From Candidatus Kapaibacterium sp. (GTDB lineage Bacteria; Bacteroidota; Ignavibacteria; Palsa-1295): a stretch of 43,528 bases of DNA. Below the pieces are notes generated by a model. That model saw only the letters and a list, made by a program, of their open reading frames with translations, made no database searches and was not told the DNA's origin. Of the stretch, positions 1,777 to 28,931 are shown in pieces. Position 1 is the first letter of the stretch, and every line of letters starts with the position of its first letter. The stretch covers positions 1 to 43,528 of the forward strand of contig JADGPZ010000001.1 of the NCBI GenBank assembly GCA_017882165.1, written 5' to 3'. A program made the translations under genes and the position numbers.

Positions 1777-1784
1777 TAAATTTG
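1777..1784 (+). promoter_or_regulatory. Candidate Bacteroidota-type -7 box TAAATTTG
   Basis: TAAATTTG matches the TAnnTTTG -7 consensus known from Bacteroidota. Its context TGCGTAAATTTGC is repeated exactly at 42836-42848 before another plus-strand gene. I do not see a convincing -33 TTG at the usual spacing. If real, transcription would begin near 1790, which favours the ATG at 1860 (or 1800) over the in-frame TTG at 1782. Confidence 0.4.
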
Positions 1785-1859
1785 CCGGTTCTGGCGCGGA
1801 TGATATCTCAACCGCCGCTGTTCGACCGTTTTCGTAATACCGTTCAAGCCCCTTTTTTC

Positions 1860-3635
1860 ATGACCGCCGACGTATTCATTAGCTATTCCCGCGAGGATAA
1901 AGACCGCGTGGTCGCGCTTGCGCAAAAACTGCGCGAGGCCGGTGTCTCGCTCTGGATCGATCAGGGCGGCATCGATGGCGCGGCGATGTGGAGCGAGGAG
2001 ATCGTCCATGCGCTGGAGGACGCGAAGGTCCTGATGCTCATGGTGAGCGAAAAGGCCGTCGCGTCGCACAACGTCGTCAAAGAGGTGACGATCGCGAGCG
2101 AGCGGAAGGGTCATATTCTTCCAGTCCATCTCGAACCAACTCGCATACCGGCCGCATTGAAGTACGCACTTGCCGGAATCCAGCATATCGAGTATTTCAC
2201 ATCCGGACCAGAAGAGGGGACAAGAAGCATCCTCCGTTCGCTGGAGCGGCTTGGCGTCAAAGTTCAACCGCTCAACTCGACGATTGCGGGTGCCGCAGCC
2301 CAAACATCTTCTCACCTCTCCTCGAATGCGGGAATGCACAGTTCGGTCGAGCTCGAACGAGCGATCGCCGTCCTGCCGTTCACGAACATCAGTCCTGATA
2401 AGGAGACCGATTATTTTTCTGATGGTCTGACCGAAGAGCTGATCACGAATCTCTCGCGGCTGAAGGACATCCGTGTAGTACCGGGGACGATCACGATGCA
2501 GTTCAAGGGGGCGCAGAAGAATATCCGCGGCATCGGCGAAGAACTGCGCGCTCGCTACGTCATCACCGGTAGCGTTCGCAAGCACGCGGAAAATCTTCGC
2601 GTGACCGCTCAGCTCATCGACGTGCAAACCGAAGCACAATTATGGGCCGAGACCTACAAAGGCAAGCTCGAAGATGTATTCGAGATTCAAGAGCAAGTCG
2701 CAAAGCAGATCGTCGATGCGCTGGCCATCAAGTTGACCATGGCGCAGCAGATCGCTTTGACGAAGCGCTCGACGGATAATCCCGAAGCGCTCGATTATTA
2801 TCTCCGAGGAAGGGAGTACTCCTTCAAAACGGCTCGGAAGAACTTCGAGTTTGCGATTCAGCTCTACCGGAAAGCGATTGAACTCGATACTCGCTACGCG
2901 AATGCATACTCAGGTCTGGGCGAGGCGTATGCCGCACTCTTTTATGCCTTCGAGCGAAACCCCGACTATCTTGAGCGAGCGGCGGAGGCAAGCCTCAAGG
3001 CGCTGATGTATGACCCTGGGTCGGCAGAAGCATACGCCGCCCTCGGCTTGACGTACTTCTATCAGGGGAATCCACGCGAAGCCGAGGAAGCCTGCTTAAA
3101 GTCAGTTGAGTTGAATCCTCAGCTTTTTATGGGGTATAGCAATTTAGGCCGAATCTATCATCTCACGGACAGAGATGCAAAAGCGGTTGAGGCATGGCAA
3201 CGTGCGGCGGAACTTCGTCCAGATGCCTACGCCGTGCTCGCGATGCTTGCCGGTATCCTGGCAAGCCTGGGACGACAAAGCGAACGAGAAGAGGTATTGA
3301 GAAATATGCTCGATGTCCTACCCCGCCATCTTTTGCGAGAACCGGAAGATTATTCGGCCCGCGTGTTCTATGCACTTGCTCTCTCGTGGGTGGATCGGGC
3401 GGAAGAGGCAAGGGCGGAAGCGCGACGCGTCTTGGATGCCGAGCCGAGCGATCCACTCCTCCTATACAACGTCGCGTGCTCGCTGTCCCAACTCCGGGAC
3501 TATGATGGTGCCGTCCTGGGATTAAGCAGCGCGATCAAGGCCGGTTATACCACGTTCGATTGGGTCAAACGCGACAGCGATCTCGAACCCATCCGCAACC
3601 ATCCCGGCTACATTGAACTTATGAAGGATAAGTGA
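1860..3635 (+). CDS. TIR domain - TolB-like - TPR repeat protein
   Basis: The product has 591 residues from the ATG at 1860. The frame is open to a TTG at 1782, but MTADVFISYS is a normal TIR beginning. Residues 3-130 form a TIR domain (FISYSREDK, then E75 in NVVKEVTIAS at the position of the TIR NADase glutamate). Residues 165-290 match the TolB-like/FlgO-type N-terminal module often seen before TPRs in adenylate-cyclase-like proteins (IAVLPFTNISPD, YFSDGLTEELITNL, YVITGSVRK). Residues 310-591 are TPR repeats. There is no signal peptide or membrane segment, so it should be cytosolic. It may be a scaffold, a signalling protein or an NAD-cleaving effector; the sequence does not decide. It shares the A of its TGA stop with the start of the next gene (TGATG), implying translational coupling. 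Confidence 0.85.
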   Translation: MTADVFISYSREDKDRVVALAQKLREAGVSLWIDQGGIDGAAMWSEEIVHALEDAKVLMLMVSEKAVASHNVVKEVTIASERKGHILPVHLEPTRIPAALKYALAGIQHIEYFTSGPEEGTRSILRSLERLGVKVQPLNSTIAGAAAQTSSHLSSNAGMHSSVELERAIAVLPFTNISPDKETDYFSDGLTEELITNLSRLKDIRVVPGTITMQFKGAQKNIRGIGEELRARYVITGSVRKHAENLRVTAQLIDVQTEAQLWAETYKGKLEDVFEIQEQVAKQIVDALAIKLTMAQQIALTKRSTDNPEALDYYLRGREYSFKTARKNFEFAIQLYRKAIELDTRYANAYSGLGEAYAALFYAFERNPDYLERAAEASLKALMYDPGSAEAYAALGLTYFYQGNPREAEEACLKSVELNPQLFMGYSNLGRIYHLTDRDAKAVEAWQRAAELRPDAYAVLAMLAGILASLGRQSEREEVLRNMLDVLPRHLLREPEDYSARVFYALALSWVDRAEEARAEARRVLDAEPSDPLLLYNVACSLSQLRDYDGAVLGLSSAIKAGYTTFDWVKRDSDLEPIRNHPGYIELMKDK

Positions 3636-5021: not shown

Positions 5022-7487
5022 TTACATGGACGCTTCGAGTTGCAAGTTGCGTTCGAGAATCCGGGATAACTGCTGGCTTGTAAAGGGCTTCGTGAGATAG
5101 TCCACACAGCCCGCACCGAGGGCAGTCTCCCGGCTGATCTGGCCAGCAAAGGCCGTGACCGCGACGACCGGAACTTGGGCGGTCCTGGGATTTCGTTTCA
5201 ACTCCCGCGTCAAATCCAGCCCGGTCGTGAACTCACCAAGATTGATGTCCATGAGGATCAGATCGGGGAGCGTTTGCGACTGGGGATAATCGGTCATCCC
5301 AAGCGCCTGCCGCGCCTGGTAGATATTTGTTGCGTGAAGAAGATTATAGCGCGTTCCTAAGAGCGCATCGACCAGCTTCATCGCTTCCGGAGTGTCTTCG
5401 ACGAGCAGGATGGTCGCGCGAGTCGCCGGGTCTGACGTACGGGCCTCCTCCACAACATTTTCGCTCATGTTGCGCGGAAGCCGGACAATGAAGGTGCTGC
5501 CAACGCCGATGGCGCTTCGGACTTCGATCGAGCCACCCATTGCCTCGACGAGCCTGCTCGCGATCGTGAGCCCGAGTCCGGTACCGGGATGGGTTCGGTT
5601 GAGACCGTTCGATCCTTGTTGGAATTCGTCAAAGATGTCCGAAAGACGCTCGGGTGGAATGCCGATCCCGGTGTCTTCCACGATGAGACGAAAGTATTCC
5701 TCCTTGGGGGTATCGCCAAGCATAAATGAATGATAGGGAGCCTCCAGAGGAGCCTCGGCCTCCGAGTTCATCTTGATGCGGACCGTGATGTCGCCCTCAT
5801 CTGTAAACTTGATCGCGTTCCCGAGGAGATTGGTAACAATTCGATCGAACTGCTGCGGATCGATGAGCGCCTCGGCACCATGCAACGTCGGTGAGAACTG
5901 CAGGCGCAGCTTCCTCCGGGCGGCGAGCGGCTCCAAGAGGGCACAGGTGCGCTGCGTTTCCACATTCACATTGTGCTTCGCTAACGAGACTGCAATCTGG
6001 TGGGATTCGACTTGCGCCAGATCGAGGATGCTGTTGATCGTCGCGAGCAGCCGCGTGCAACTCGACTCGATGATCGTGGCATACTCGTGCTGTTCCGGAT
6101 CTTTGATACTCTCGGCGAGGACACTCGCAAAACCCATGATCGCTGTCATCGGCGTCCGGATCTCATGGCTCATGTTGGCCAGGAAGCTCGACTTGAGCCG
6201 GTTCATTTCTTCGGCCTTCTCTTTGGCGCCAATCGCCTTATTGCGTTCCTGTTCGAGCTGCGCTTCGAGCGCCTTGCGTTCCGAGATGTCCTGGGCGCTG
6301 CCGACGACGCGCACGGCCTTGCCTGCCGCGTCGCGCTCGATGATTCCGCGGTCCCAAACGGAGACATAATATCCATCGCGGTGCTTGACCCGGTACTCGA
6401 CCTCGTATTGCTTCTCTTGTTGCAGGGCACGATCGATCACCGCCTGTGCATGTCGACGGTCATCCGGATGGATGCGGCTCATCCACCACTCGACGTTGTC
6501 GATGTTCTCGTCCACCTTCGCATCGAATCCGAGCAACGGCAAGAGACCCGGCGTGTCGATCGAATGGCCCGTTACGACATCCCAATCGTAAATCACGGCC
6601 GTCACCGCATCGGCTGCGAGACGAAAGCGTTCGTTCGCTTCCATCAGTTCGCGTTGTGCCTTCAACCGTTCTGTGATGTCCGTGACGAGCGAAAAGCGAG
6701 CCGTTCGTCCATTGTACTCGACGACATGAGGATGGAGAAGGGCATCTATTTGCTCCCCATTTTTCTTCACATAATGGGCGACAATCGGCTTCTCATCCCT
6801 AAGATCCTGAAACTGTGGGAGTAGATCCTTCATGAAAGTCGCCTGCTCTACTGGCGACCGAATATCAAGAACCGTTTTGGTGAGGAACTCAGCTTCTGAA
6901 AACCCGAATAGCTCGCACGCCGCTCGATTGACCCGGAGAAACTTGAGCGTCTCGATGTCGATGAACCACATCGGCAATGGACTGGTCTCAAACAACTGAC
7001 GGTAACGGAATTCGGAGGCCGAAAGCGCCTCGAGCGTGGCCCGTTCCGTCGTAATATCTCTTCCAAAGATGGCAACGCCGCTGATCGCTTCGCCTTCTCG
7101 TATGGGATTGAACGAGAACTCGACAACGGCGCGTCCCATCGGGTTGTCGTAGATGCGCTCCAGCGTGAACTGCTCGTTGGCAAAAGCACGCTTGTACGCT
7201 CCCTGCCAGAATGCGCGCTCATCTTCTGAAGGGATGTGTGCTCCAAGATCCATCCCTACCTGAAGTTCGATGCCCCAGATCTGCCGCATGAGCCCTTCCA
7301 GCACCGCATTAAACGTAACTAATCGGAAATCACGATCGACCGAGGAGATCGCCTGATCCGAGTTGTCGAGCACCATTCTCAGGTTCGCGCGGGAACGGGC
7401 CAGTTCGAAGGCTAATGCCTGAATAGGATTGTTCGATGGAAAGTCCGACGAATCATCTGCCCGAATCTTGGGCTTGCTATTATCCAT
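5022..7487 (-). CDS. Hybrid sensor histidine kinase (three PAS, HisKA, HATPase, receiver)
   Basis: The product has 821 residues and no obvious transmembrane segment, so it is probably a cytosolic sensor. PAS-like domains lie near 33-150, 157-275 and 283-405 (the last ending in the PAC-like IHPDD and GSAQDISERKA). HisKA contains SFLANMSHEIRTPM with phospho-acceptor H441. The HATPase domain has N-box VTNLLGNAIKF (551-561), DTGIGI (605-610) and GTGLGL (635-640). A C-terminal receiver has acidic residues at VEDT, the phospho-acceptor D747 in LMDINL and K800 in YLTKPF. The His and Asp on one chain suggest an internal relay or passage to an unlinked Hpt or regulator; no partner is adjacent. It converges with the beta-lactamase-fold gene across a 31-bp gap. 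Confidence 0.93.
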   Translation of the reverse strand: MDNSKPKIRADDSSDFPSNNPIQALAFELARSRANLRMVLDNSDQAISSVDRDFRLVTFNAVLEGLMRQIWGIELQVGMDLGAHIPSEDERAFWQGAYKRAFANEQFTLERIYDNPMGRAVVEFSFNPIREGEAISGVAIFGRDITTERATLEALSASEFRYRQLFETSPLPMWFIDIETLKFLRVNRAACELFGFSEAEFLTKTVLDIRSPVEQATFMKDLLPQFQDLRDEKPIVAHYVKKNGEQIDALLHPHVVEYNGRTARFSLVTDITERLKAQRELMEANERFRLAADAVTAVIYDWDVVTGHSIDTPGLLPLLGFDAKVDENIDNVEWWMSRIHPDDRRHAQAVIDRALQQEKQYEVEYRVKHRDGYYVSVWDRGIIERDAAGKAVRVVGSAQDISERKALEAQLEQERNKAIGAKEKAEEMNRLKSSFLANMSHEIRTPMTAIMGFASVLAESIKDPEQHEYATIIESSCTRLLATINSILDLAQVESHQIAVSLAKHNVNVETQRTCALLEPLAARRKLRLQFSPTLHGAEALIDPQQFDRIVTNLLGNAIKFTDEGDITVRIKMNSEAEAPLEAPYHSFMLGDTPKEEYFRLIVEDTGIGIPPERLSDIFDEFQQGSNGLNRTHPGTGLGLTIASRLVEAMGGSIEVRSAIGVGSTFIVRLPRNMSENVVEEARTSDPATRATILLVEDTPEAMKLVDALLGTRYNLLHATNIYQARQALGMTDYPQSQTLPDLILMDINLGEFTTGLDLTRELKRNPRTAQVPVVAVTAFAGQISRETALGAGCVDYLTKPFTSQQLSRILERNLQLEASM

Positions 7488-10488: not shown

Positions 10489-12606
10489 TTATGGCAATAT
10501 AACCACCGCCCGCGCCGCACTCTGCCCGCCCGCTTCTAACCGGCAGAAATAGACTCCGCCCGGCAGCGTCCCACGATCGAACGTGACCTCATGCTCGCCC
10601 GCATCGAAAAAACCGCTCGCCAGCACCGCAACCTCACGGCCAGTGGCATCGAAGAGTTTGAGGGATGCGAAGGCTGGTACGACAAATGAGAAACTCATCG
10701 AGCAGCCTTGGCTCACGGGGTTCGGGTAAGTCGGTTCAAGCGCCAGATCATGACTGAGGTGAGTACTGTTTTCTACAACCGACAACATTGTTGTTGATTG
10801 AGAGCTTCGAAAGACGCCGAATGGTGTACCGGCAAATAGAATTCCTTCAGAATCGATCGCGAGACTTGCTACATGATATAATCCGGTGTATAACTTATTC
10901 AGGCCACCGGTCACATTCATCCAATTGTCACCATCATTGGTGGATTGGAATACGCCGCTATCCGTCGCTACAAACACGAACCCACTTGAATTCACGATCA
11001 GCGAGGTGGGGTAACCGCGAGCAAGTCCATTGTTTGTTAGTTGCCATGAATTGCCATCGTCAGTGGAACGCAAGACACCGCCGTTTGCCCCTGCGAATAC
11101 TGTGTGCGGTCCCTTCAAAGCAAGGAACCGCCATCCATCAAACATCACCATGCTGTCAATCCATATCCATGAATCCCCATTGTCTGTGCTTCGATAAATG
11201 CGGGTATGTGTCCCTGCAAAAACCGCCCCGTTCCCGCGACATTCAAGTGATATGACTTCCACACCGCCTAAAGCCCCTTGGGTAGCATCCGTCCAGCGGT
11301 TCCCGTTGTCGGTTGATCGAAGTACCGCACCTCCGCGAGTGCCGGCGAAGAGCGTTCCTTGTGAACTGCATGTGAGCATGGTAATGTCTCCAATGCCCAG
11401 TTCGGTCGAATCCCAATTCCTACCGTTGTCAAATGATCGGTAGATGCCACCGGTGCCGTTTCCATCGATAAATCCTGCGAAGACGGTTCCGGAAGTATTA
11501 GCCGTTAAAGCTCCAATGCTGACGTACCATGGCACACGACCAGTGGCTTCCCAACTCTTACCCTGATTCGTCGAACGTGCGGCATAATAACCCGCTCCTG
11601 CAAAGATCGTAGCGCCTGAACGAATCGAAATCGGATCGATCTCAACTCCTTGCAACGAGGGAAGCAACGGTGTCCAACGCGAACTTCCATCAAATCTGAA
11701 TAACCCATTGAAACTACTCGCGATCATTCCGATGTCGGGTGAAACAACAAGTCCACTCGCATTTGGGACTCCTGCTTGTCTGTACCAATACATGCCGCTT
11801 GGAGTCGTCGAAAATTCCCACCCACTATCTGTCATGATATCGACAATCCTTGACTGGTCGATAGTTGCAGCATAAACATGCTTTCCTGTTATGCTAAGCT
11901 TCTCCCAAGAAGTACCTGCATTTAAGGAGCGGATCATTCCATTCCCATAGGTACCTACAAATAAGGATCCGTTCTGATTACCCAGGATGCAAGTAATTGG
12001 CGCAGTCGAATGGGTGTCACCAGTCGCGGACCAATTGTCGCCTCCGTCAGAGGTTACGTAGATTCCACCTCCATGCGTGCCGCCGAATACTTTACTTGAC
12101 GTAGGAACACCCAAGACTGTAACCGTTTGTTCAATGGGACCGGTGTAGACACGCATCCATTTTCGACCATTGTCGGTGGATCGAAAAACACCACTGTCAC
12201 TACACGCGAATACTGCATTATTTTGAACCACAACAAGTGACCTGAAGTAACTCTTAATGAGACCGCTATCTGGAGCGAGCCACGAATTTCCATAGTCTGA
12301 ACTGTAGAAGACGCCGCTATCGGTCGCGGCAAAAAGTGGAGAGTTGCCATCAATGCCTAATGAGCTGATGACCCCGGCTGAAACACTTCCTGTTGATCGG
12401 GTCCATGAACCACCTCCGTGTGAGATATACACTCCGCTACCCACAGCGGCATATAGTGTTCCACTCTGGCTCATCGCAAGCGCAGATACACTCGTTGTCG
12501 AGCCATTGCAAGGCTCCCAAAAATTCTGCGCGCGCGCATCGCCAATCTCAAAGAGAGCAGCGGAAAGCATCAGCAAGATTACCTTAATCACAACGGCTTC
12601 CAACAC
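10489..12606 (-). CDS. T9SS-exported BNR/sortilin-like repeat protein
   Basis: The product has 705 residues. The frame opens at a GTG (12606); another GTG at 12591 would give a more compact signal peptide ending near DARAQ. At least ten repeats carry an Asp-box-like core, for example RSTDNGRKW, VTSDGGDNW, RSTNQGKSW, RSFDNGRNW and RSTDDGNSW, predicting a beta-propeller of the BNR/sortilin/Ycf48 type. The last 80 residues form a T9SS type A sorting domain (TYPNPVSQG, LKLFDATGREVAVL, LPGGVYFCRL, ending VVILP), so the protein should cross the outer membrane and be anchored or released. The function is unknown; such propellers usually bind partners or glycans. It is the last gene of the minus-strand run from 15383. 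Confidence 0.87.
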   Translation of the reverse strand: MLEAVVIKVILLMLSAALFEIGDARAQNFWEPCNGSTTSVSALAMSQSGTLYAAVGSGVYISHGGGSWTRSTGSVSAGVISSLGIDGNSPLFAATDSGVFYSSDYGNSWLAPDSGLIKSYFRSLVVVQNNAVFACSDSGVFRSTDNGRKWMRVYTGPIEQTVTVLGVPTSSKVFGGTHGGGIYVTSDGGDNWSATGDTHSTAPITCILGNQNGSLFVGTYGNGMIRSLNAGTSWEKLSITGKHVYAATIDQSRIVDIMTDSGWEFSTTPSGMYWYRQAGVPNASGLVVSPDIGMIASSFNGLFRFDGSSRWTPLLPSLQGVEIDPISIRSGATIFAGAGYYAARSTNQGKSWEATGRVPWYVSIGALTANTSGTVFAGFIDGNGTGGIYRSFDNGRNWDSTELGIGDITMLTCSSQGTLFAGTRGGAVLRSTDNGNRWTDATQGALGGVEVISLECRGNGAVFAGTHTRIYRSTDNGDSWIWIDSMVMFDGWRFLALKGPHTVFAGANGGVLRSTDDGNSWQLTNNGLARGYPTSLIVNSSGFVFVATDSGVFQSTNDGDNWMNVTGGLNKLYTGLYHVASLAIDSEGILFAGTPFGVFRSSQSTTMLSVVENSTHLSHDLALEPTYPNPVSQGCSMSFSFVVPAFASLKLFDATGREVAVLASGFFDAGEHEVTFDRGTLPGGVYFCRLEAGGQSAARAVVILP

Positions 12607-14395: not shown

Positions 14396-14498
14396 GTCAT
14401 TGCGAGGAGTGCGAAGCACGACGAAGCAATCTCCAGAAGGAAGCCACGGACTCCGTGGTGGGGATTGCTTCGCTTCACTTCGTTACGCTCGCAATGAC
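14396..14498. repeat. REP-like palindrome, GTCATTGCGAGGAG family (copy 1)
   Basis: The unit starts GTCATTGCGAGGAG and ends GCTCGCAATGAC, with inner inverted blocks CGAAGCAATC and GATTGCTTCG. The same ends and inner blocks recur at 21055-21185 between rplM and rpsI. It fills the gap between the glyoxalase-like gene and pcm. Confidence 0.8.
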
Positions 14499-15889: not shown

Positions 15890-16215
15890 TTACTGTTCAT
15901 TTGCGAGACCGTCACAATGTCCTGATGTTACCATAATCTTCTCTTAAGCCGCTGCAATCGGATATGATCCCGAACGCCCGCAAGTGGGTACGCGGACCGG
16001 CTACACTTAAGCTGTAGATACTCGGACCGCAATCGCAATCGTCTTTCGTGTATCTGCAATTCAGGGAAAGGTCCCTTTGAGGCAAGTGCTGTCAATAAGA
16101 AAGAACGGTCGAAATTCAGGACGAAATCTATTTTAGCCCTCCTCAGGGGTAAAAAGATTCACTGTAAGGTGTTGAGTCTCATGGACCTTCATTAAATGTG
16201 GAAATTAGAGCAAAA
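15890..16215. other. Intergenic, no gene seen
   Basis: About 325 bp between the T9SS relic and the first cassette gene. I see no convincing ORF, tRNA or strong terminator; only small stems such as AGGGAAAGGTCCCTTT near 16057. It marks the left boundary of the AT-richer block. Confidence 0.5.
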
Positions 16216-16854
16216 ATGAATTGGAACATCGTTGAACCGAGTGCTGGGGACAGGATCTTTGAGTGTGATAAGGAGGCTCTCAAAGTGAGCCGAGCAAAAA
16301 CGGATGGGCTGGATTTTCGACTTCTTCCAGAGCCTTTCGTGGGAGATGTTGAGCACGCTAAAGTGATTCTGTTAAACGGTAATCCATTCTTCGATGAATC
16401 TGACATAGAGTACCCACTCAGACAGGAGTTTGAAAAAAGAGCACAAGCTAACTGGCAGAATCGACACGACCAATTTCCATTCTACTACTTTGATCCGAGG
16501 TTCAGCACTTCAGGGGGTGCTCGATATTGGATCAAGAGGTTCAGAGCAGTTACCAATCTTACATCGGCGGATGAAGTTGCGCGTAACGTTGCGGTCATTG
16601 AGAGTTTTCCTTACAAAAGCAAAAGTAATCCCAAGGAGAACTCGTGGCTACGGAAGTTGCCCTCAGTGGCGCAACTCAGACTCTTAGCCGAGAAGGCGGT
16701 TACTCGCGGTGCCGTAGTGATCGCGCTCCGTGCGGAGTGGGCTTGGAGTGAGGTCGCCTTTATTGAGGCATGCAGTAACCCGCAGCAGCCTTATCTGACC
16801 GAGAAGCAGCTTCCAAATTCGTTTCGCTCCATAATTGGGGCTATTAATAGTTGA
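16216..16854 (+). CDS. Uncharacterised protein, possibly uracil-DNA-glycosylase-like fold
   Basis: The product has 212 residues from ATG 16216; the frame is open to a GTG at 16198. Visible blocks are AKVILLNGNPFFDESD, FPFYYFDPRF, ARYWIKRF, AVIESFPYKSKS and RGAVVIALRAEWAW. The ILLNGNPFF segment resembles motif I of the uracil-DNA glycosylase superfamily (GxNPG-like), and the later FPYxSK block resembles uncharacterised proteins I recall from other bacteria, but the C-terminal HPS motif is absent, so activity is uncertain. It is first in a four-gene plus-strand cassette, 6 bp before the next gene. Base composition is AT-richer than tsf next door. Confidence 0.6.
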   Translation: MNWNIVEPSAGDRIFECDKEALKVSRAKTDGLDFRLLPEPFVGDVEHAKVILLNGNPFFDESDIEYPLRQEFEKRAQANWQNRHDQFPFYYFDPRFSTSGGARYWIKRFRAVTNLTSADEVARNVAVIESFPYKSKSNPKENSWLRKLPSVAQLRLLAEKAVTRGAVVIALRAEWAWSEVAFIEACSNPQQPYLTEKQLPNSFRSIIGAINS

Positions 16855-16860
16855 CGCGCA

Positions 16861-17277
16861 ATGCTACGAGTCGGCGAGCCGATACGAATTTCTATCGAAG
16901 AGACAAGGCTCCGCGTCAGCGAGTTCATGGAGGAAGTTGACGAGTTCCTGGGTGCGGACACCTGTTTGACTTGTTACTTCAGCTATGGGCCGCAAGGAAT
17001 GTCGGTGCACGTGAGTGACGTGGTGTCGCAGCGGAGTTACGGCTGGTCAATAGCACAGAATCCAAGTGCCCAGCTATTGTTATATCAAAAGTTGGTTCGC
17101 TCGGGACGTTACGTTGCACCAATCAGGCAACAACGAAGTGATATGGCCGACCTTCTTATTCAGATAGAAGAAACTGTTTCAAGCGACGAAGCAATTGTTG
17201 CATGGCGAGCAATGCGTGATCGGTCGTTGGTGAGAAGACTCCTCGCGAAGCTGAATCAAGCGGATTTGCAAAAGTGA
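16861..17277 (+). CDS. Uncharacterised protein, 138 residues
   Basis: I do not recognise this family. Visible features are an N-terminal amphipathic start (MLRVGEPIRISIEETRLR), a middle with two Cys close together (DTCLTCYFSY), and a helical C-terminus rich in Arg and Leu (WRAMRDRSLVRRLLAKLNQ). No signal peptide is present. It starts 6 bp after the preceding gene, so the two are probably one transcriptional unit, and is followed by a 94-bp gap before the third cassette gene. Confidence 0.6.
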   Translation: MLRVGEPIRISIEETRLRVSEFMEEVDEFLGADTCLTCYFSYGPQGMSVHVSDVVSQRSYGWSIAQNPSAQLLLYQKLVRSGRYVAPIRQQRSDMADLLIQIEETVSSDEAIVAWRAMRDRSLVRRLLAKLNQADLQK

Positions 17278-17371
17278 CGAGAAATCTTAAGACGCCGGGG
17301 GCTTGGAACTCAAGCACCTTTCAATCGGATTCAAATCAGATTATCATCTTCCGCTATCCGAGGAATAACCC

Positions 17372-18252
17372 ATGATAACCGCATTCAAAGACAAGGAGGG
17401 CAACATCCATGTCGGTGTCGTCTCTGAGGCGGAAGGTGAGCGAATTAAGCGTGAGGTCGCATCAAAGGGGTGGGCAGAGCCTTCCGAGAGCGTAAGCGAC
17501 GAGAACCAGAATGTGCCAGCGGAGCCCCCCATGTATCCCTCGATGCGGACAGCAACATCTCGCAAGAACCTGCAGGCGTAGTTGTCGATCTTGCTGCTGC
17601 TGAGCGAGGAGAGCTGCCAGTCAAGCTCGATGATCTCGATGACGGGGAAGAAGATGATGATTTATTTCCGCAGGCTCAATTCCTGCTTATCGAACTTGGC
17701 CTCACCTCGGGCACGGAGGATAATGTGTTCGTTCGAACTTTGACACAAGTTCTTAATGGCTTTAGGTGGCTAACTTACGATAGTAAGAGAAAAATCGTCA
17801 CTCTCCCTGCCGTTGGTGGTTACCCGCCGACTATTGCTCTACCAGCGGCTGTGTTCAAAGATATTCTTCGAAATTTCGCTTGGGGCACGGGTAGCTTGTT
17901 TGAACTAGTTCAGTATGTTCTTGCGTCGCGAAGCTCTCACTTTTTGGAGATGTATTTGACTGGATCGATTTCGTTCGAAACGCTTATTTCCGAGGACTCA
18001 GATTTCCAGAATCTGGTTGATGGACCTATTGACGAAATGTCGGAGAATTTACCTACTGTGGAAGCCTGGGAAGCGATTTTCTGGTCTGAAGGCCCGAAGT
18101 GGAGCGCCAATCCAATTGTCCAAAGGTATTGGTATTACTGGGATCGAAACAAATTTGACTTCCGCCGCATCCTTCACGGATTACCCGAAGAATTTTGGAA
18201 AAGGGAGATTTTTACGGAGGACTTTCTTAACATTCTCAGCCGGTTTCGATGA
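17372..18252 (+). CDS. Uncharacterised protein interrupted by an apparent frameshift at a C6 run
   Basis: Two overlapping frames appear to be one gene. The first starts at ATG 17372 (GAGG upstream) and reads MITAFKDKEGNIHVGVVSEA through NVPAEPP; its partner continues HVSLDADSNISQEPAG through a very acidic stretch (LDDLDDGEEDDDLF) to FLNILSRFR at 18252. Frame change is needed at the C6 run 17525-17530; adding one C joins them into about 293 residues. The alternative upstream part of the second frame (MGRAFRERKRREPEC) looks like antisense-type noise. The C-terminal half is rich in aromatics (FWSEGPKWSA, RYWYYWDRNKF). The family is not recognised. It overlaps the next gene by ATGA, so coupling is likely. 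Confidence 0.55.
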
Positions 18253-18611
18253 GCGAAGCTAAGTTCTGGACGTGCGAGAAGGGAGTTCGCACTAAACCTT
18301 TGCCAATCCTAATCGCGAAGGGGGATCAGCTTTACCAGGCTCCTTTTGGTGCTGCTGCTGGTAAGCCAATCGCTGAAATCCGAGGCAATTGTGTATACCG
18401 GATGTACACGGGGCTAGCAATACCCGTGGCGACCGTAAGAGGTGACAATGTTACGCAAGGCTTCGGTTCTCGGCCGTGGATTAGTATTTCTGGTAACGGT
18501 GCGTACGACACCATTGGTGCAAAAGCCCTCGTCTTCCTGCAAGGTGTGAACTGCACCAAGATGCAGCTCGCGATGGCTGCTGCAATTTACAAAACTGAGA
18601 ATAGGCCGTAG
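18249..18611 (+). CDS. Small beta-repeat protein (beta-flower-like)
   Basis: The product has 120 residues. A degenerate repeat of the form G-x-P-x-A-x-I-x-G-N-x-x-Y is visible (AAGKPIAEIRGNCVYRMY, LAIPVATVRGDNVTQG, GSRPWISISGN), which recalls the predicted four- or five-fold beta-flower proteins; this is a resemblance from memory. The start ATG overlaps the stop of the preceding gene (ATGA), so the two are translated together. It is the last gene of the cassette and converges with tsf across 34 bp. No enzyme motif or signal peptide is seen. Confidence 0.6.
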   Translation: MSEAKFWTCEKGVRTKPLPILIAKGDQLYQAPFGAAAGKPIAEIRGNCVYRMYTGLAIPVATVRGDNVTQGFGSRPWISISGNGAYDTIGAKALVFLQGVNCTKMQLAMAAAIYKTENRP

Positions 18612-18645
18612 CGAGCATGCACCCGCGACGATCGAGTGGGAGTGA

Positions 18646-19524
18646 TTACTCCGTCGCGCCCTTATGCATATCCCCGAGCTGCATTCGCACGAAGCCACTG
18701 ACCGTCACGCCCTGACCGGCTTCCTTCAGTAGATCGGTGACCGTCTTCGCGGCGTCCTTGATGAAGCTCTGCTCCAGCAGGCAATTATCCTGATAGAACT
18801 TCTCAAGCTTGTTCTTGGCAATGCGGTCGATGATCTCTTCCTTCTTGCCTTCGTTGCGGGCCTGGGTGCGGTAGATGTCGATCTCCTTCTCGATCTGATC
18901 GGACTTGATCTCATCGCGGCGGACCGACATCGGGTTCATCGCGGCGATCTGCATCGCAATATCACGACCAATCGCGCTCGCCGCACCGTCCTTGGTGCCG
19001 CTGACCGGAGTACCGCTCAACGCAACCAGCACACCGAGCTTTGAACCGGGGTGGATATAACTCGTCACGAAGCCGTTCGGCTCGGAGAGCATCTCGAACC
19101 GGCGCGCTTCGAGCTTCTCGCCAAGTCGTCCGGTCTGCGCGCCAACTTCTTCGGCGATCGTTGCGCCGCTGGCAAGCTTCGAAAGTAAAAACTGCTCGTG
19201 CGAATTTGGATTCGCCTTGAGTGCCGCGTGCGCGATGTCCTGCGCGAACTGCATGAACGTCTCGTTGCGCGCGACGAAATCGGTCTCGGAATTCACTTCG
19301 GCCAAGACGGCACGCGTCTTATCCTCGGAGACCGAGGAGACGACGACGCCCTCTTTGGCGACGCGATCGGCGCGCTTGGCCGCGGAGGCCGCGCCCCGCT
19401 TGCGCAGGAATTCGATCGCCTGTTCTTCGTTGCCGTTGGCCTCTTCGAGAGCCTTCTTACAATCTGCCATGCCTGCGCCGGTCTTATCGCGCAGGTGCTT
19501 TACGAGTGCGGGAGATACTGCCAT
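18646..19524 (-). CDS. tsf: Translation elongation factor Ts
   Basis: The product has 292 residues. EF-Ts exchanges GDP for GTP on EF-Tu. The N-terminal UBA-like region reads VKHLRDKTGAGMADCKKALE, and SETDFVARNETF is the EF-Ts signature. The C-terminal end LLKEAGQGVTVSGFVRMQLG is typical. Length is ordinary. It is the last gene in rplM-rpsI-rpsB-tsf; rpsB-tsf is the normal bacterial pairing. Confidence 0.97.
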   Translation of the reverse strand: MAVSPALVKHLRDKTGAGMADCKKALEEANGNEEQAIEFLRKRGAASAAKRADRVAKEGVVVSSVSEDKTRAVLAEVNSETDFVARNETFMQFAQDIAHAALKANPNSHEQFLLSKLASGATIAEEVGAQTGRLGEKLEARRFEMLSEPNGFVTSYIHPGSKLGVLVALSGTPVSGTKDGAASAIGRDIAMQIAAMNPMSVRRDEIKSDQIEKEIDIYRTQARNEGKKEEIIDRIAKNKLEKFYQDNCLLEQSFIKDAAKTVTDLLKEAGQGVTVSGFVRMQLGDMHKGATE

Positions 19525-21832: not shown

Positions 21833-23278
21833 TCAAAACAACTGCATACTTACCCGCGGGTCATTCTCCGTAAGAATTTGCCATTCGATACCCGGGTGTT
21901 TGCCAAAGAATCTTTTGCAGGCTGTCTCGAGATCAGGGGCTTCAATCTCGAAGTAAACGTCATCGCGACCATCGAAGGGGACTGCCTTGAGTTGCTGAAG
22001 CTGAACATGCATCCAAGAGCGAAAAATGTACTTCCCCGGCCCGGGCTCTATGCTTCCCTTCTCGCCATTGAATTGAATAATGAGATAGAGGAATTCGACC
22101 CCATTTGCCTTGGTGATTATATCAGCAGCGGAGCCACCATCCTCAATCTTCACGACAACACTGAAGCCAAGCCTTTTAAGGCCAAAGTGCAGTGCGGCAT
22201 TGTCATGGTGATATCCGTCAAAGTACCCGCGGGCTGCTGCTCTTTGGAGGTTATCCTCACTATACAAATCAAGTATCCGGGTTCGATCCTTGATCCCATC
22301 CATTCGGTCAGACCTGCCGTTATCAAAATTGACCGAGTAGATTTTCTCCGGGATATCCAAAGCAGTCTCGGTCACTTCCTGAGTGGGCACAGCACTTAGG
22401 ACTGAAGCAAACTTGCTGAGTCCTCTCGTCCATTGGGCGGCGCTCGAATTGGGGATTCTCAATTTCTTATCGAGAAGGTCCTTGAGTGTTGCCATTTCGG
22501 ACGCTTCATCGGCAAGAATTTGATGTTTGGGTTCAAGGAGAACGCCAATCGGCCCTTTCGCTAATGGTGGTAACAAAACCGGGATAATGTGTCTTCCCAA
22601 TATCCATGCAGCGCCTAGTTCGTTCATGCAAATGGCGCTGCTCAAATATGCTTTCGAAATCACTGCCACGAATACTTCCGCGACATGAAGTTGCGAATGA
22701 ATTCTCTCTCGAAAATCAGCGCCTGGTTCATTGCCGAGACCATCAATCGACGTGCAATAAATATCATTGACGGTATTTAGTCCGAGGCCTGTTTGAAGTA
22801 CATCGTCGACAAGACTTTCGACGAGCAACTTGTCTTCTGAGCAATGGCTGACAAAAACTCGTTGCGTTATTCCGAGTATTGTGGGTGGGAGACTCGCGAA
22901 AGCTACGGGCATCACACTTGTTGAGACCACTTTAGTAGCACTTTGATTTTTGTCAGCCCTCAAAAGTTTTGGATTTCTGTTAACCCTTCGTTCCAGTGCT
23001 CTGAGCTCTCCCAGCACTTCGGTCACACAGTTATGGCTGGCCTGATTCAGGAAGTTTCTAGTACCCTGATCATAAATTGCATTAATCCTTAAAGCTGGTG
23101 TAGAATCCACGAGTTCGTCTCCAAGGAAGTCAACAACCTCGGACATGAATTGCGTAAACTGATTCTCTGCCGCATGTTCTAGGAATAGACTATCTCTGGT
23201 TTGGATAAATCGATTCAGGAATCTCTCATTCTGAGAGATGTAATGAAGAAGCTCCTTTTTAAACTCGTCTGCAGTCAT
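21833..23278 (-). CDS. TIR-domain protein with unrecognised flanking domains
   Basis: The product has 481 residues. Residues 1-110 are helical (FKKELLHYISQNERFLNRF and following). Residues 138-285 form a TIR domain: RVFVSHCSEDKLLVESLVDD, a linker with the expected acidic positions, and E220 in SSAICMNELGAAW at the NADase glutamate position. Residues 310-481 are a separate alpha/beta region (FDGYHHDNAALHFGL, GVEFLYLIIQFNGEKG, YIFRSWMHVQLQQL) that I do not recognise; it may sense a trigger or bind a partner. There is no signal peptide. TIR proteins with extra sensor-like domains are common in anti-phage immunity, where NAD depletion kills infected cells. Its minus-strand neighbours are a HicAB toxin-antitoxin and a small antitoxin-like gene. 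Base composition is AT-richer than the ribosomal genes downstream. Confidence 0.8.
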   Translation of the reverse strand: MTADEFKKELLHYISQNERFLNRFIQTRDSLFLEHAAENQFTQFMSEVVDFLGDELVDSTPALRINAIYDQGTRNFLNQASHNCVTEVLGELRALERRVNRNPKLLRADKNQSATKVVSTSVMPVAFASLPPTILGITQRVFVSHCSEDKLLVESLVDDVLQTGLGLNTVNDIYCTSIDGLGNEPGADFRERIHSQLHVAEVFVAVISKAYLSSAICMNELGAAWILGRHIIPVLLPPLAKGPIGVLLEPKHQILADEASEMATLKDLLDKKLRIPNSSAAQWTRGLSKFASVLSAVPTQEVTETALDIPEKIYSVNFDNGRSDRMDGIKDRTRILDLYSEDNLQRAAARGYFDGYHHDNAALHFGLKRLGFSVVVKIEDGGSAADIITKANGVEFLYLIIQFNGEKGSIEPGPGKYIFRSWMHVQLQQLKAVPFDGRDDVYFEIEAPDLETACKRFFGKHPGIEWQILTENDPRVSMQLF

Positions 23279-26537: not shown

Positions 26538-27944
26538 TCAGGTCTCTGAAAAGGCGGACGTGAATTCCGCTCGCATGAGTTTAGCCTGGGGGTGGTCGAC
26601 CCCCAGTTTTTCTTCTTGGAGCGGGACGAACTTTTGATAGAGTTCTAAGGCTTCGGCGCGCCGACCTGCACGGAGGTGGTTCCGCGCAAGCTTGATATGA
26701 AATTGAATAACCGTCAGATGGTCCGGCCCGAATGCCGCTTTGGCATTGGAGATCCCCGCGAGCAGTATCGCGTTCGCTTCCTCGTATCGGCCCTGATCCG
26801 AGCGCAGCAATGCAAAGTTTTGCTGTAATGCAAGGACGATGGGATGCGTATGGCCTTTGATGGCTTCAAGCAGTGGGATCGCCTCGAGATAAATTGGCTC
26901 CGCTTCTGTGAGTTGGCCCTGCACGTGAAGCATGATAGCAAAATTCGCAACGCACTGCAGTGTGTCGGGATGGCGCGCGCCGAGCAAGTGCTTGTAAATC
27001 TCTATTGCGGTCCGAAAAAGTTCGATGGCTTCTTCCGCATGATTCCCGGGCTTTCGGTAGAGCACGGCTCCCAGATTGTTTGCCAAACGAGCATATTCAA
27101 GCGTCCGGCCTTCCATTCGCTCGCATTGATCGAGTGCCGAGCGGAAGAGCTGCTCCGCCTCCGGAACGTTACCCAACTCAAAGAGGGTGTTCGCAAGACT
27201 GGTCGTCAGACTTCGGTACGAGTTCGCGTCTCCGGCGGAATCCCTCATGGCCAGGGCACGCTCCAGTAAGGAAGCGGCCTCTTTGAATTCCGCCTTCAGG
27301 ATCAGGATGTTCGCAAGCTTAAGGAGTGACGCTCCAATCGCCTTCGTATCCCTATTGGATTCGCCAAGGGAAAGTGACTGCCGGAACAGCGCCACCGCTT
27401 CGTCTAATTTCCCACGTTCCTGCAAAATCGAACCGAGTCGCTGTAACGCTTCGCCAAGAAGTGTACTTTCGTTGGGGTATTGCTCGCAAATCGCCAGAGC
27501 TTCAGAGGCCAGCGCTTCCGCCGCATCATAGTTTGTCGTCAAACTCAGGAATTCACCGACATTGATTGCAGCCTGGGCGTATTTCTCCGGCTCCTTCCGA
27601 AGAGCATCGAGAGAAGAATGGTAATATTCAATGGATGACCGTTCGGACGCATTCCAGTATTTCAGCAGTTCATAATCTTGCCGGTTATCGACGGCATACG
27701 TGAGAAGATCGAGTTTCGCAAGCGAATCCGCCAGCCGCCGCTTATCGCCGCAGGCATTCCACTGCCACGGTTCTTCTTCGAAGCGGCGGGCCATCATCGT
27801 GTGCTTGCCGAAGAAGACTGCAAGCTTACGATGCCGCTCGCGTTCGATCAGTGGATTTGCAAGATACCGGCGATGCACGGCACGGCGCAAATAATCGTGG
27901 ACGAACGTGAAGCGGCCGTTCGGCTTCGAGCTCAGATACACCAC
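26538..27944 (-). CDS. C-terminal TPR part of a DUF4062-type protein (5' part disrupted)
   Basis: The frame gives 468 residues. It opens with VYLSSKPNGRFTFVHDYLRR, which reads like the end of a NACHT/AAA-type NTPase region (winged-helix part) rather than a protein beginning, then a helical linker and at least eight TPRs of the kinesin-light-chain type (LGEALQRLGSILQERGKLDE, YARLANNLGAVLYRKPGNHA, GARHPDTLQCVANFAIMLHV). It overlaps the DUF4062 frame at 27826-27944 in another phase. In intact relatives an NTPase of several hundred residues should separate the two. I read this as the 3' half of a gene that suffered an internal deletion; it might still be expressed alone. Confidence 0.7.
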   Translation of the reverse strand: MVYLSSKPNGRFTFVHDYLRRAVHRRYLANPLIERERHRKLAVFFGKHTMMARRFEEEPWQWNACGDKRRLADSLAKLDLLTYAVDNRQDYELLKYWNASERSSIEYYHSSLDALRKEPEKYAQAAINVGEFLSLTTNYDAAEALASEALAICEQYPNESTLLGEALQRLGSILQERGKLDEAVALFRQSLSLGESNRDTKAIGASLLKLANILILKAEFKEAASLLERALAMRDSAGDANSYRSLTTSLANTLFELGNVPEAEQLFRSALDQCERMEGRTLEYARLANNLGAVLYRKPGNHAEEAIELFRTAIEIYKHLLGARHPDTLQCVANFAIMLHVQGQLTEAEPIYLEAIPLLEAIKGHTHPIVLALQQNFALLRSDQGRYEEANAILLAGISNAKAAFGPDHLTVIQFHIKLARNHLRAGRRAEALELYQKFVPLQEEKLGVDHPQAKLMRAEFTSAFSET

Positions 27945-28542
27945 TCGCCAGTGGCCAGTCGCGTTCGAGAACGGCGAGAAGGTCCTGATAGACGCGCTCG
28001 CCCATCTCGTCCAGCGAGTCGAAACACCGCACCGGCCGGCCAGACGATGCGATCCGCTCTCTCAACAGATCGAGCTGCGGGTTCGGCACTGCTCCCGGCT
28101 CCGGCTTTCGGCAATAAACGAAGGCGCCGGTCGCACCCTTCGGAGCCTTCAGCATCCCGGCCATGATCTCGATCTCGACCAAACTCAACCCATCGATCGA
28201 AGCGTCCTCGATCCACGGATACTGCTCGATCAAATGGTAGTCCTTCTGCACTTCCGAGAGCGGCGGAATCCAACCGTACCGATCGCCGATGAGCGCGATG
28301 AAGTACGGATAGCACCGGTCGATCTCCTCTAAGCAGGTGCGAACGACGCGGCCCAGCGAGGCTTCTTCTTCCGTCACGCCCCAGAGCAGATCGATCTCGG
28401 TAAACTCGATCCCCCGCTCCCGGCACGCTGCCCGAACCTTCGGGAAGATGTGCTTCATCAGATACGCGCGCTCCGCCTGCAAGTCCAGGAACGTGGACGA
28501 TATGAAGAGACGAAACTCGGATCGGTTTGCCGGTGAAACCAT
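27826..28542 (-). CDS. N-terminal DUF4062 part of the same disrupted gene
   Basis: From ATG 28542 (a GTG at 28560 is possible) the frame reads a DUF4062 domain: SEFRLFISSTFLDLQAERAY, FTEIDLLWGVTEEEA, RTCLEEIDRCYPYFIALIGD and RYGWIPP. DUF4062 is a TIR/SIR2-like N-terminal module usually followed by a NACHT NTPase and TPRs in STAND-type proteins. Homology ends near LLAVLERDWPLASG; the following stretch (SELEAERPLHVRPRLF) is a shifted reading of the sequence that encodes SSKPNGRF in the neighbouring frame. Hence the domain is joined out of frame to the TPR part with the NTPase absent. Confidence 0.7.
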   Translation of the reverse strand: MVSPANRSEFRLFISSTFLDLQAERAYLMKHIFPKVRAACRERGIEFTEIDLLWGVTEEEASLGRVVRTCLEEIDRCYPYFIALIGDRYGWIPPLSEVQKDYHLIEQYPWIEDASIDGLSLVEIEIMAGMLKAPKGATGAFVYCRKPEPGAVPNPQLDLLRERIASSGRPVRCFDSLDEMGERVYQDLLAVLERDWPLASGVSELEAERPLHVRPRLFAPCRASPVSCKSTDRTRAAS

Positions 28543-28931
28543 GCGTGATCTTGCCCACACAACACTTTTTGCGGCCCATCATTCTCATTCCGTTAGAAAG
28601 ATTACGACCCGCACATTTTAGTATTTGAGATTAAAATTCATAAAGCTGCTCTCGCCCCGATTAGGGGTTATCTTGGTTCTTCTTTCCGCCAGTCCCAAGT
28701 AGTGCATCTGTTCTCACAGAATGCAGCCCAGTTCACCGAATCGGAATGTGAAGAGAACCCCTATATTAGTATAACATCGGAACCAAGTCGATCTGTTGCA
28801 GACTTACTGGAACACCATACCACACAACGACTTACAAGGATTATACTTTAGTCCCCATAACGCCAGCCGGGCACGTCGATCTGGTAGGATTCAGGCGAAG
28901 CGAGATGATTTTGAAGACCCGTTGGATGCTC
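28543..28931. other. Intergenic, nothing recognised
   Basis: About 390 bp upstream of the DUF4062 gene. No supported ORF, tRNA or clear hairpin; the minus-strand promoter of the DUF4062 gene presumably lies at its left end, but I cannot point to a box. Confidence 0.4.

Follow-up and report, generated by a model that had tools for sequence, protein, structure and literature searches.

The explanation that accounts best for the data, and that we consider rather likely, is that the first gene of a short AT-rich cassette beside tsf in Candidatus Kapaibacterium sp. encodes a Brig1-related anti-phage DNA glycosylase. Brig1 protects bacteria by excising modified bases from virus DNA (Hossain et al. 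2024, PMC11078745). Judged from its amino acid sequence, the product of gene 1 (g1) is a diverged member of a wider Brig1-like glycosylase group, and it probably has a role in defence. The original prediction had proposed a possible nucleic-acid- or defence-related function for all four genes of the cassette. This proposal stands for gene 1, which matches the antiviral model NF047634 and has homologues with defence-type neighbours, but the data lend no support to the four genes as one functional unit.

Layout and composition of the cassette

The window, which is the whole stretch of DNA that was analysed, comprises 43,528 nucleotides (contig JADGPZ010000001.1, positions 1 to 43,528). The cassette is flanked by a glyoxalase-like/small-ORF pair on one side and by tsf on the other, and contains the following features:

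16216–16854, plus strand: gene 1 (g1), 212 amino acids, with an alternative GTG start at 16198
16861–17277, plus strand: gene 2 (g2), 138 amino acids, an orphan
17372–17530, plus strand: probable 5' part of gene 3, frame 2, open to 17581
17525–17530, plus strand: six-C run in gene 3, GCGGAGCCCCCCATG, with the reading-frame change nearby
17533–18252, plus strand: main part of gene 3 (g3b), frame 1, about 240 amino acids, in an ORF that opens with GTG 17470; an orphan
18249–18611, plus strand: gene 4 (g4), 120 amino acids, an orphan with four repeats and a hydrophobic C-terminal segment; beta-flower-like

Four tightly spaced plus-strand genes had been described here. Three of the ORFs, the 6-bp gap between g1 and g2, and the ATGA overlap of genes 3 and 4 at 18249–18252 agree with that description, but gene 3 does not exist as a single ORF. 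As drawn, from 17372 to 18252, it has no single open frame and changes from frame 2 to frame 1. The ATG at 17372, located 94 bp past gene 2, opens a frame of only 69 amino acids that stops at 17579–17581. The long frame that runs to 18252 is not this one; its only early starts are GTG 17470 and GTG 17725. By codon log-odds, frame 2 is preferred between about 17355 and about 17460 and frame 1 beyond about 17535, the signal in between being weak, which places the switch between about 17460 and 17540, near the six C. The change may be a frameshift mutation, an assembly error, recoding or the trace of two overlapping genes. A programmed frameshift at the six C was weighed up and set aside: they do not make a classical slippery heptamer when read in the zero frame, and the idea has no comparative support.

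The cassette is AT-richer than the ribosomal genes, as had been noted from single lines of the sequence (41.7% GC at 16201–16260 against 68.3% at 19321–19380), and the difference holds overall, with 49.7% GC in the cassette against 58.6% in the tsf–rplM block. Within the window, only 3.5% of stretches of cassette length are equally AT-rich. Third-position GC (GC3) amounts to 0.47–0.54 in g1, g2, g3b and g4, compared with 0.76–0.79 in tsf, rpsB, rpsI and rplM. Similarly low values occur in a TIR gene at 21833–23278 (0.48) and a BNR gene at 10489–12606 (0.49); the composition of the cassette is therefore a mark of accessory genes and not unique to it. No terminator or promoter signal at the cassette exceeded the shuffled background.

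Relationship of gene 1 to the Brig1 family

The g1 protein has no match in Pfam. Its LLNGNP motif, which resembles that of uracil-DNA glycosylases (UDGs), prompted the guess of a kinship with Brig1, and this guess was then tested with the NCBIfam model NF047634 (antiviral_Brig1). The model matches g1 over residues 32–137 (E = 4e-6), which bears out the uracil-DNA-glycosylase-like start attributed to gene 1 in the original prediction. It also matches 15 of the 16 members of the g1 family (best E 3.4e-10), which was gathered from g1 independently of the model. With 26.5 bits, g1 lies far under the equivalog cut-off of 230 bits and fails formal Brig1 membership; it is thus a remote relative and not a Brig1. 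Canonical and repair UDG models (PF03167, TIGR00758) do not match g1. The family-4 UDG of the host, used as a control, is recognised by UDG_fam4 and related models and not by NF047634. The homology of g1 to the Brig1 family is therefore detectable and specific against repair UDGs.

Searches with tblastn found g1 homologues on Variovorax and Rhizobium plasmids and on two phage-collection contigs. A three-member alignment, scanned over 84,980 species, added 12 further g1-family loci; a five-member alignment had no conserved stretch usable for scanning. The family extends over Chloroflexota, Nitrospirota, Pseudomonadota, Bacteroidota, a Candidatus Peribacteria MAG and the phage-collection contigs, and a viral scan with it yielded no relative. 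Two weak genome matches of g1 (L003 and L004) were judged spurious, the latter by its E-value near 0.004–0.008; the weak matches of g1 and g4 that were inspected fell in a non-coding frame or within some other gene.

Two Streptomyces plasmid homologues of the family member at L027 (L041:5968–6669 and L042:5968–6669) are unmatched by NF047634, so the wider family extends past this model. The L041 gene is located about 5.6 kb from a cas3 gene. A Variovorax plasmid (L007) carries two g1-family-like genes, at 5884–6666 and 11742–12347, in a stretch of about 6.5 kb. The second, which is very divergent (phmmer 0.002), was recovered again from L027.

Within the family tree, g1 has the longest branch (3.28), and it carries NPF where nearly all other members have NPG. 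Its activity or substrate may therefore differ from that of its relatives.

Putative active site and fold of gene 1

Residues P38, P40, G43, N56, Y133, S150, R172 and W177 of g1 are invariant in the 16-member alignment. W105 is present in 15 of the 16 members, and position 129 is E in 14 and Q in two. E61, five residues past N56 in g1, is matched by E in only 3 of 16. Defence by Brig1 requires Y121 and E147 (PMC11078745), and defence by Brig3 requires N50, E55, W100, D127, R197 and N225 (PMC13160076). g1 keeps residues at the active-site spacing of both proteins, the equivalence being drawn by spacing and not by alignment. The series N56, Y104/W105, E129 (48/49 and 73 residues) resembles N50, W100, D127 of Brig3 (50 and 77), which puts E129 near the position of D127, and N56 and E61 stand at the spacing of Brig3 N50 and E55. 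For the acid and the aromatic pocket residue of Brig1, g1 likewise has candidates at a similar spacing, Y104–E129 (25) resembling Y121–E147 (26).

A UDG fold is suggested for g1 by structure modelling. The AlphaFold2 model, built with 13 sequences, reached a mean pLDDT of 61.8 and a pTM of 0.63. With this moderate model, Foldseek ranked UdgX structures first to third, at non-significant scores (best E 0.15, TM <0.3). Comparison of g1 with the host family-4 UDG by hhalign gave a probability of 5%, with a weak overlap in the region of the NP motif, and the g1-family profile found none of the solved structures. The fold superfamily is probably common to g1 and family-4 UDGs, although g1 matches neither of their models and the true family-4 UDG is encoded separately in the genome.

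Neighbourhoods of gene 1 homologues

Proximity of the homologues to defence genes, which the original prediction had proposed to look for, was seen: defence-type genes adjoin family members at 6 of 12 genome loci (L027, L029, L031, L035, L037 and L038), a raw count in which L035 and L038 are close relatives. At L027, the family member follows a type IV Mrr-like restriction enzyme with an ATGA overlap (PADLOC mREase_IV, 2.5e-58), and at L037, it comes after an Mrr-like protein. The L029 gene is situated downstream of an HKD-SNF2 protein (C3a139, 1.5e-61). At L035 and L038, DruE-like (Druantia) and UvrD-like helicases precede the homologue, their identities having been obtained by scanning the L035 copies. 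The L031 homologue is flanked by Abi_C on its upstream side and by a STAND ATPase on the other. A WYL regulator is found near the L010 homologue, together with an ORF that appears from its sequence to be integrase-like. The L028 homologue lies between dnaK and a gap gene, without defence-type neighbours.

Homologues of g2, g3 or g4 were present at none of the 16 g1-family loci. The four genes, taken by the original prediction as a set, were thus never seen together elsewhere. This non-co-occurrence is weak evidence, since genes 2–4 have no homologues at all.

Genes 2–4

Nothing credible was found for genes 2–4 in Pfam, NCBIfam, PADLOC, PHROGs, plasmids, phages, viral contigs or PDB sequences, nor in 295–394 other genomes of the phylum. 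For g2, the search covered all of these collections and 295 phylum genomes; for g3, no homologue was present in plasmids, phages, viral contigs, the genome-contig collection or 394 phylum genomes. Against PDB sequences, g2 and g3 gave nothing beyond chance matches and g4 gave no match; viral scans with either g2 or g4 detected no relative. One weak genome match of g3 (L006), judged by its E-value near 0.004–0.008, and two of g4 (L046 and L047) were considered spurious.

The g4 protein contains four tandem repeats of 17–21 residues each, with G[DN]x[VLIA][YT] motifs at 25, 46, 65 and 82. Its self-alignment score of 47, compared with 16.8 ± 3.8 in 150 shuffles, shows that the four-fold repeat of gene 4 is real. 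The tandem repeats, which may be beta-hairpins, and the hydrophobic C-terminal segment recall the four-fold beta-flower fold (PF21784, clan CL0395; PMC10584680). g4 does not match PF21784 at E ≤ 1, and its structure model has a pLDDT of 34.7.

Possible acquisition of the locus

The cassette DNA was not found in 12 other genomes of the host family, nor was any member of the g1 family in 344 others of the phylum. Horizontal acquisition of the cassette is consistent with the absence from relatives and with the low GC3. Of the transferred functional unit that had been predicted, the transfer fits, but no mobile element, flanking repeats or clean empty site was found at the cassette, and the unit of four genes is unproven.

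In three further species of the genus (G198, G199 and G200), pyrH comes next to tsf or is separated from it by one short gene, which in G200 is PIN-like; in G164, extra genes stand between tsf and pyrH. G201 has guaA next to the 3' side of tsf, where the present genome has the cassette. Gene names other than tsf, rpsB, rpsI and rplM were read from the sequence and not assigned by family search. An empty-site comparison was discarded because G201 has guaA at this position and the other species differ again. This variation by species (pyrH, PIN-like, guaA or unknown genes) was noted at 18611–18646 and at L020–L025, and it suggests that rearrangement or insertion recurs on the 3' side of tsf.

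An alternative reading of the block is a set of acquired ORFs, unrelated or in decay, at a site behind tsf that is prone to rearrangement, with gene 3 as a frameshifted pseudogene. We regard this reading as rather unlikely, though it would account for the frame change in gene 3, the differing content after tsf across the genus (guaA in G201, the PIN-like gene in G200, the extra genes in G164), the orphan status of g2–g4 and the long branch of g1. It is opposed by the fact that g1 retains almost all conserved residues of its family and no stop. Moreover, g2, g3b and g4 are open across 120–240 codons, frame 1 of g3b shows host codon bias, and g4 has kept its regular repeat.

Several further features of the window were observed. 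A TIR-domain protein is encoded on the minus strand at 21833–23278 (PADLOC spbK, E = 1.9e-20), with cassette-like GC3, and is a candidate second defence gene beyond the tsf–rplM block. Another TIR-like start, followed by TPR-like repeats, was read from the sequence at 1782–3635. The minus strand at 26538–28560 carries two overlapping ORFs in different frames, 27826–28560 and 26538–27944, the latter with TPR repeats (PADLOC TPR, STAND_TPR); possibly, they are one frameshifted NTPase/TPR gene. A 41-bp element at 14396–14436 is 95% identical to L020:8959–8998, which belongs to another species of the genus and stands in a different gene context; the element represents a dispersed repeat.

Comparison with known systems and proposed mechanism

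g1 is related in sequence to Brig1 across residues 32–137, has putative pocket residues at a similar spacing and has homologues in defence neighbourhoods. It differs in its length (212 versus 261 amino acids), in its score against the Brig1 model and in having no ADP-ribosyl glycohydrolase neighbour. A second comparison is offered by Brig3, an anti-phage DNA glycosylase with the operon partner BapA (PMC13160076). Here too, a UDG-superfamily protein heads a same-strand group with small uncharacterised proteins, but no BapA-like partner (ASC-1-type, double beta-barrel) was recognised beside g1 from the Pfam, NCBIfam and PADLOC searches of genes 2–4. The resemblance to a glycosylase with its partner is an analogy.

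Activity of g1, a modified base as its substrate and a defensive function are inferred. The protein would bind DNA and flip a base that is non-standard (modified by the phage) into a pocket that Y104/W105 line. Hydrolysis of the N-glycosidic bond would be assisted by N56 and the acid E129, and the abasic sites left behind would then block phage replication. Genes 2–4 follow g1 on its strand and may share a transcript with it; by analogy with BapA and Brig3, they could be partners of g1, or they could be unrelated acquired genes.

According to a bolder reading, which we think unlikely, all four genes form one defence operon with a Brig-type glycosylase and three accessory proteins that would broaden its range of substrates, recruit it or finish off abasic DNA. 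The common strand, the 6-bp gap, the ATGA overlap, the low GC3 common to g1, g2, g3b and g4 and the joint absence of the four genes from relatives all speak for such an operon, and BapA with Brig3 and the three-gene Brig1 operon provide precedents. However, homologues of g2–g4 are missing from all g1-family loci, and these genes have no homologues that could show co-occurrence. A tight operon also sits less well with the 94-bp gap and the broken frame of gene 3, and Brig1 and Brig3 were each sufficient alone in published assays. It is improbable, in our estimation, that the cassette is a new operon in which a diverged Brig-type glycosylase and three undescribed proteins, one of them a beta-flower, act against modified phage DNA with excision as one step.

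That g1 is a host DNA repair or base-scavenging glycosylase and no defence gene is very doubtful: UDG superfamily proteins mostly serve DNA repair, and the L028 homologue sits between dnaK and gap with no defence neighbours, but the host already has a family-4 UDG, g1 is absent from the 12 family and 344 phylum genomes, half of the homologue loci have defence-type neighbours, and g1 matches the antiviral model instead of the repair models.

Significance

Anti-phage DNA glycosylases have been described from 2024 onward, and few are known. The g1 family is a divergent one that lies beyond the curated Brig1 model, and its members often adjoin restriction or abortive-infection genes. Genes 2–4 are, by their position only, candidates for new partner proteins. 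If the g1 family is active, a wider set of bases or phages would be within reach of base-excision immunity.
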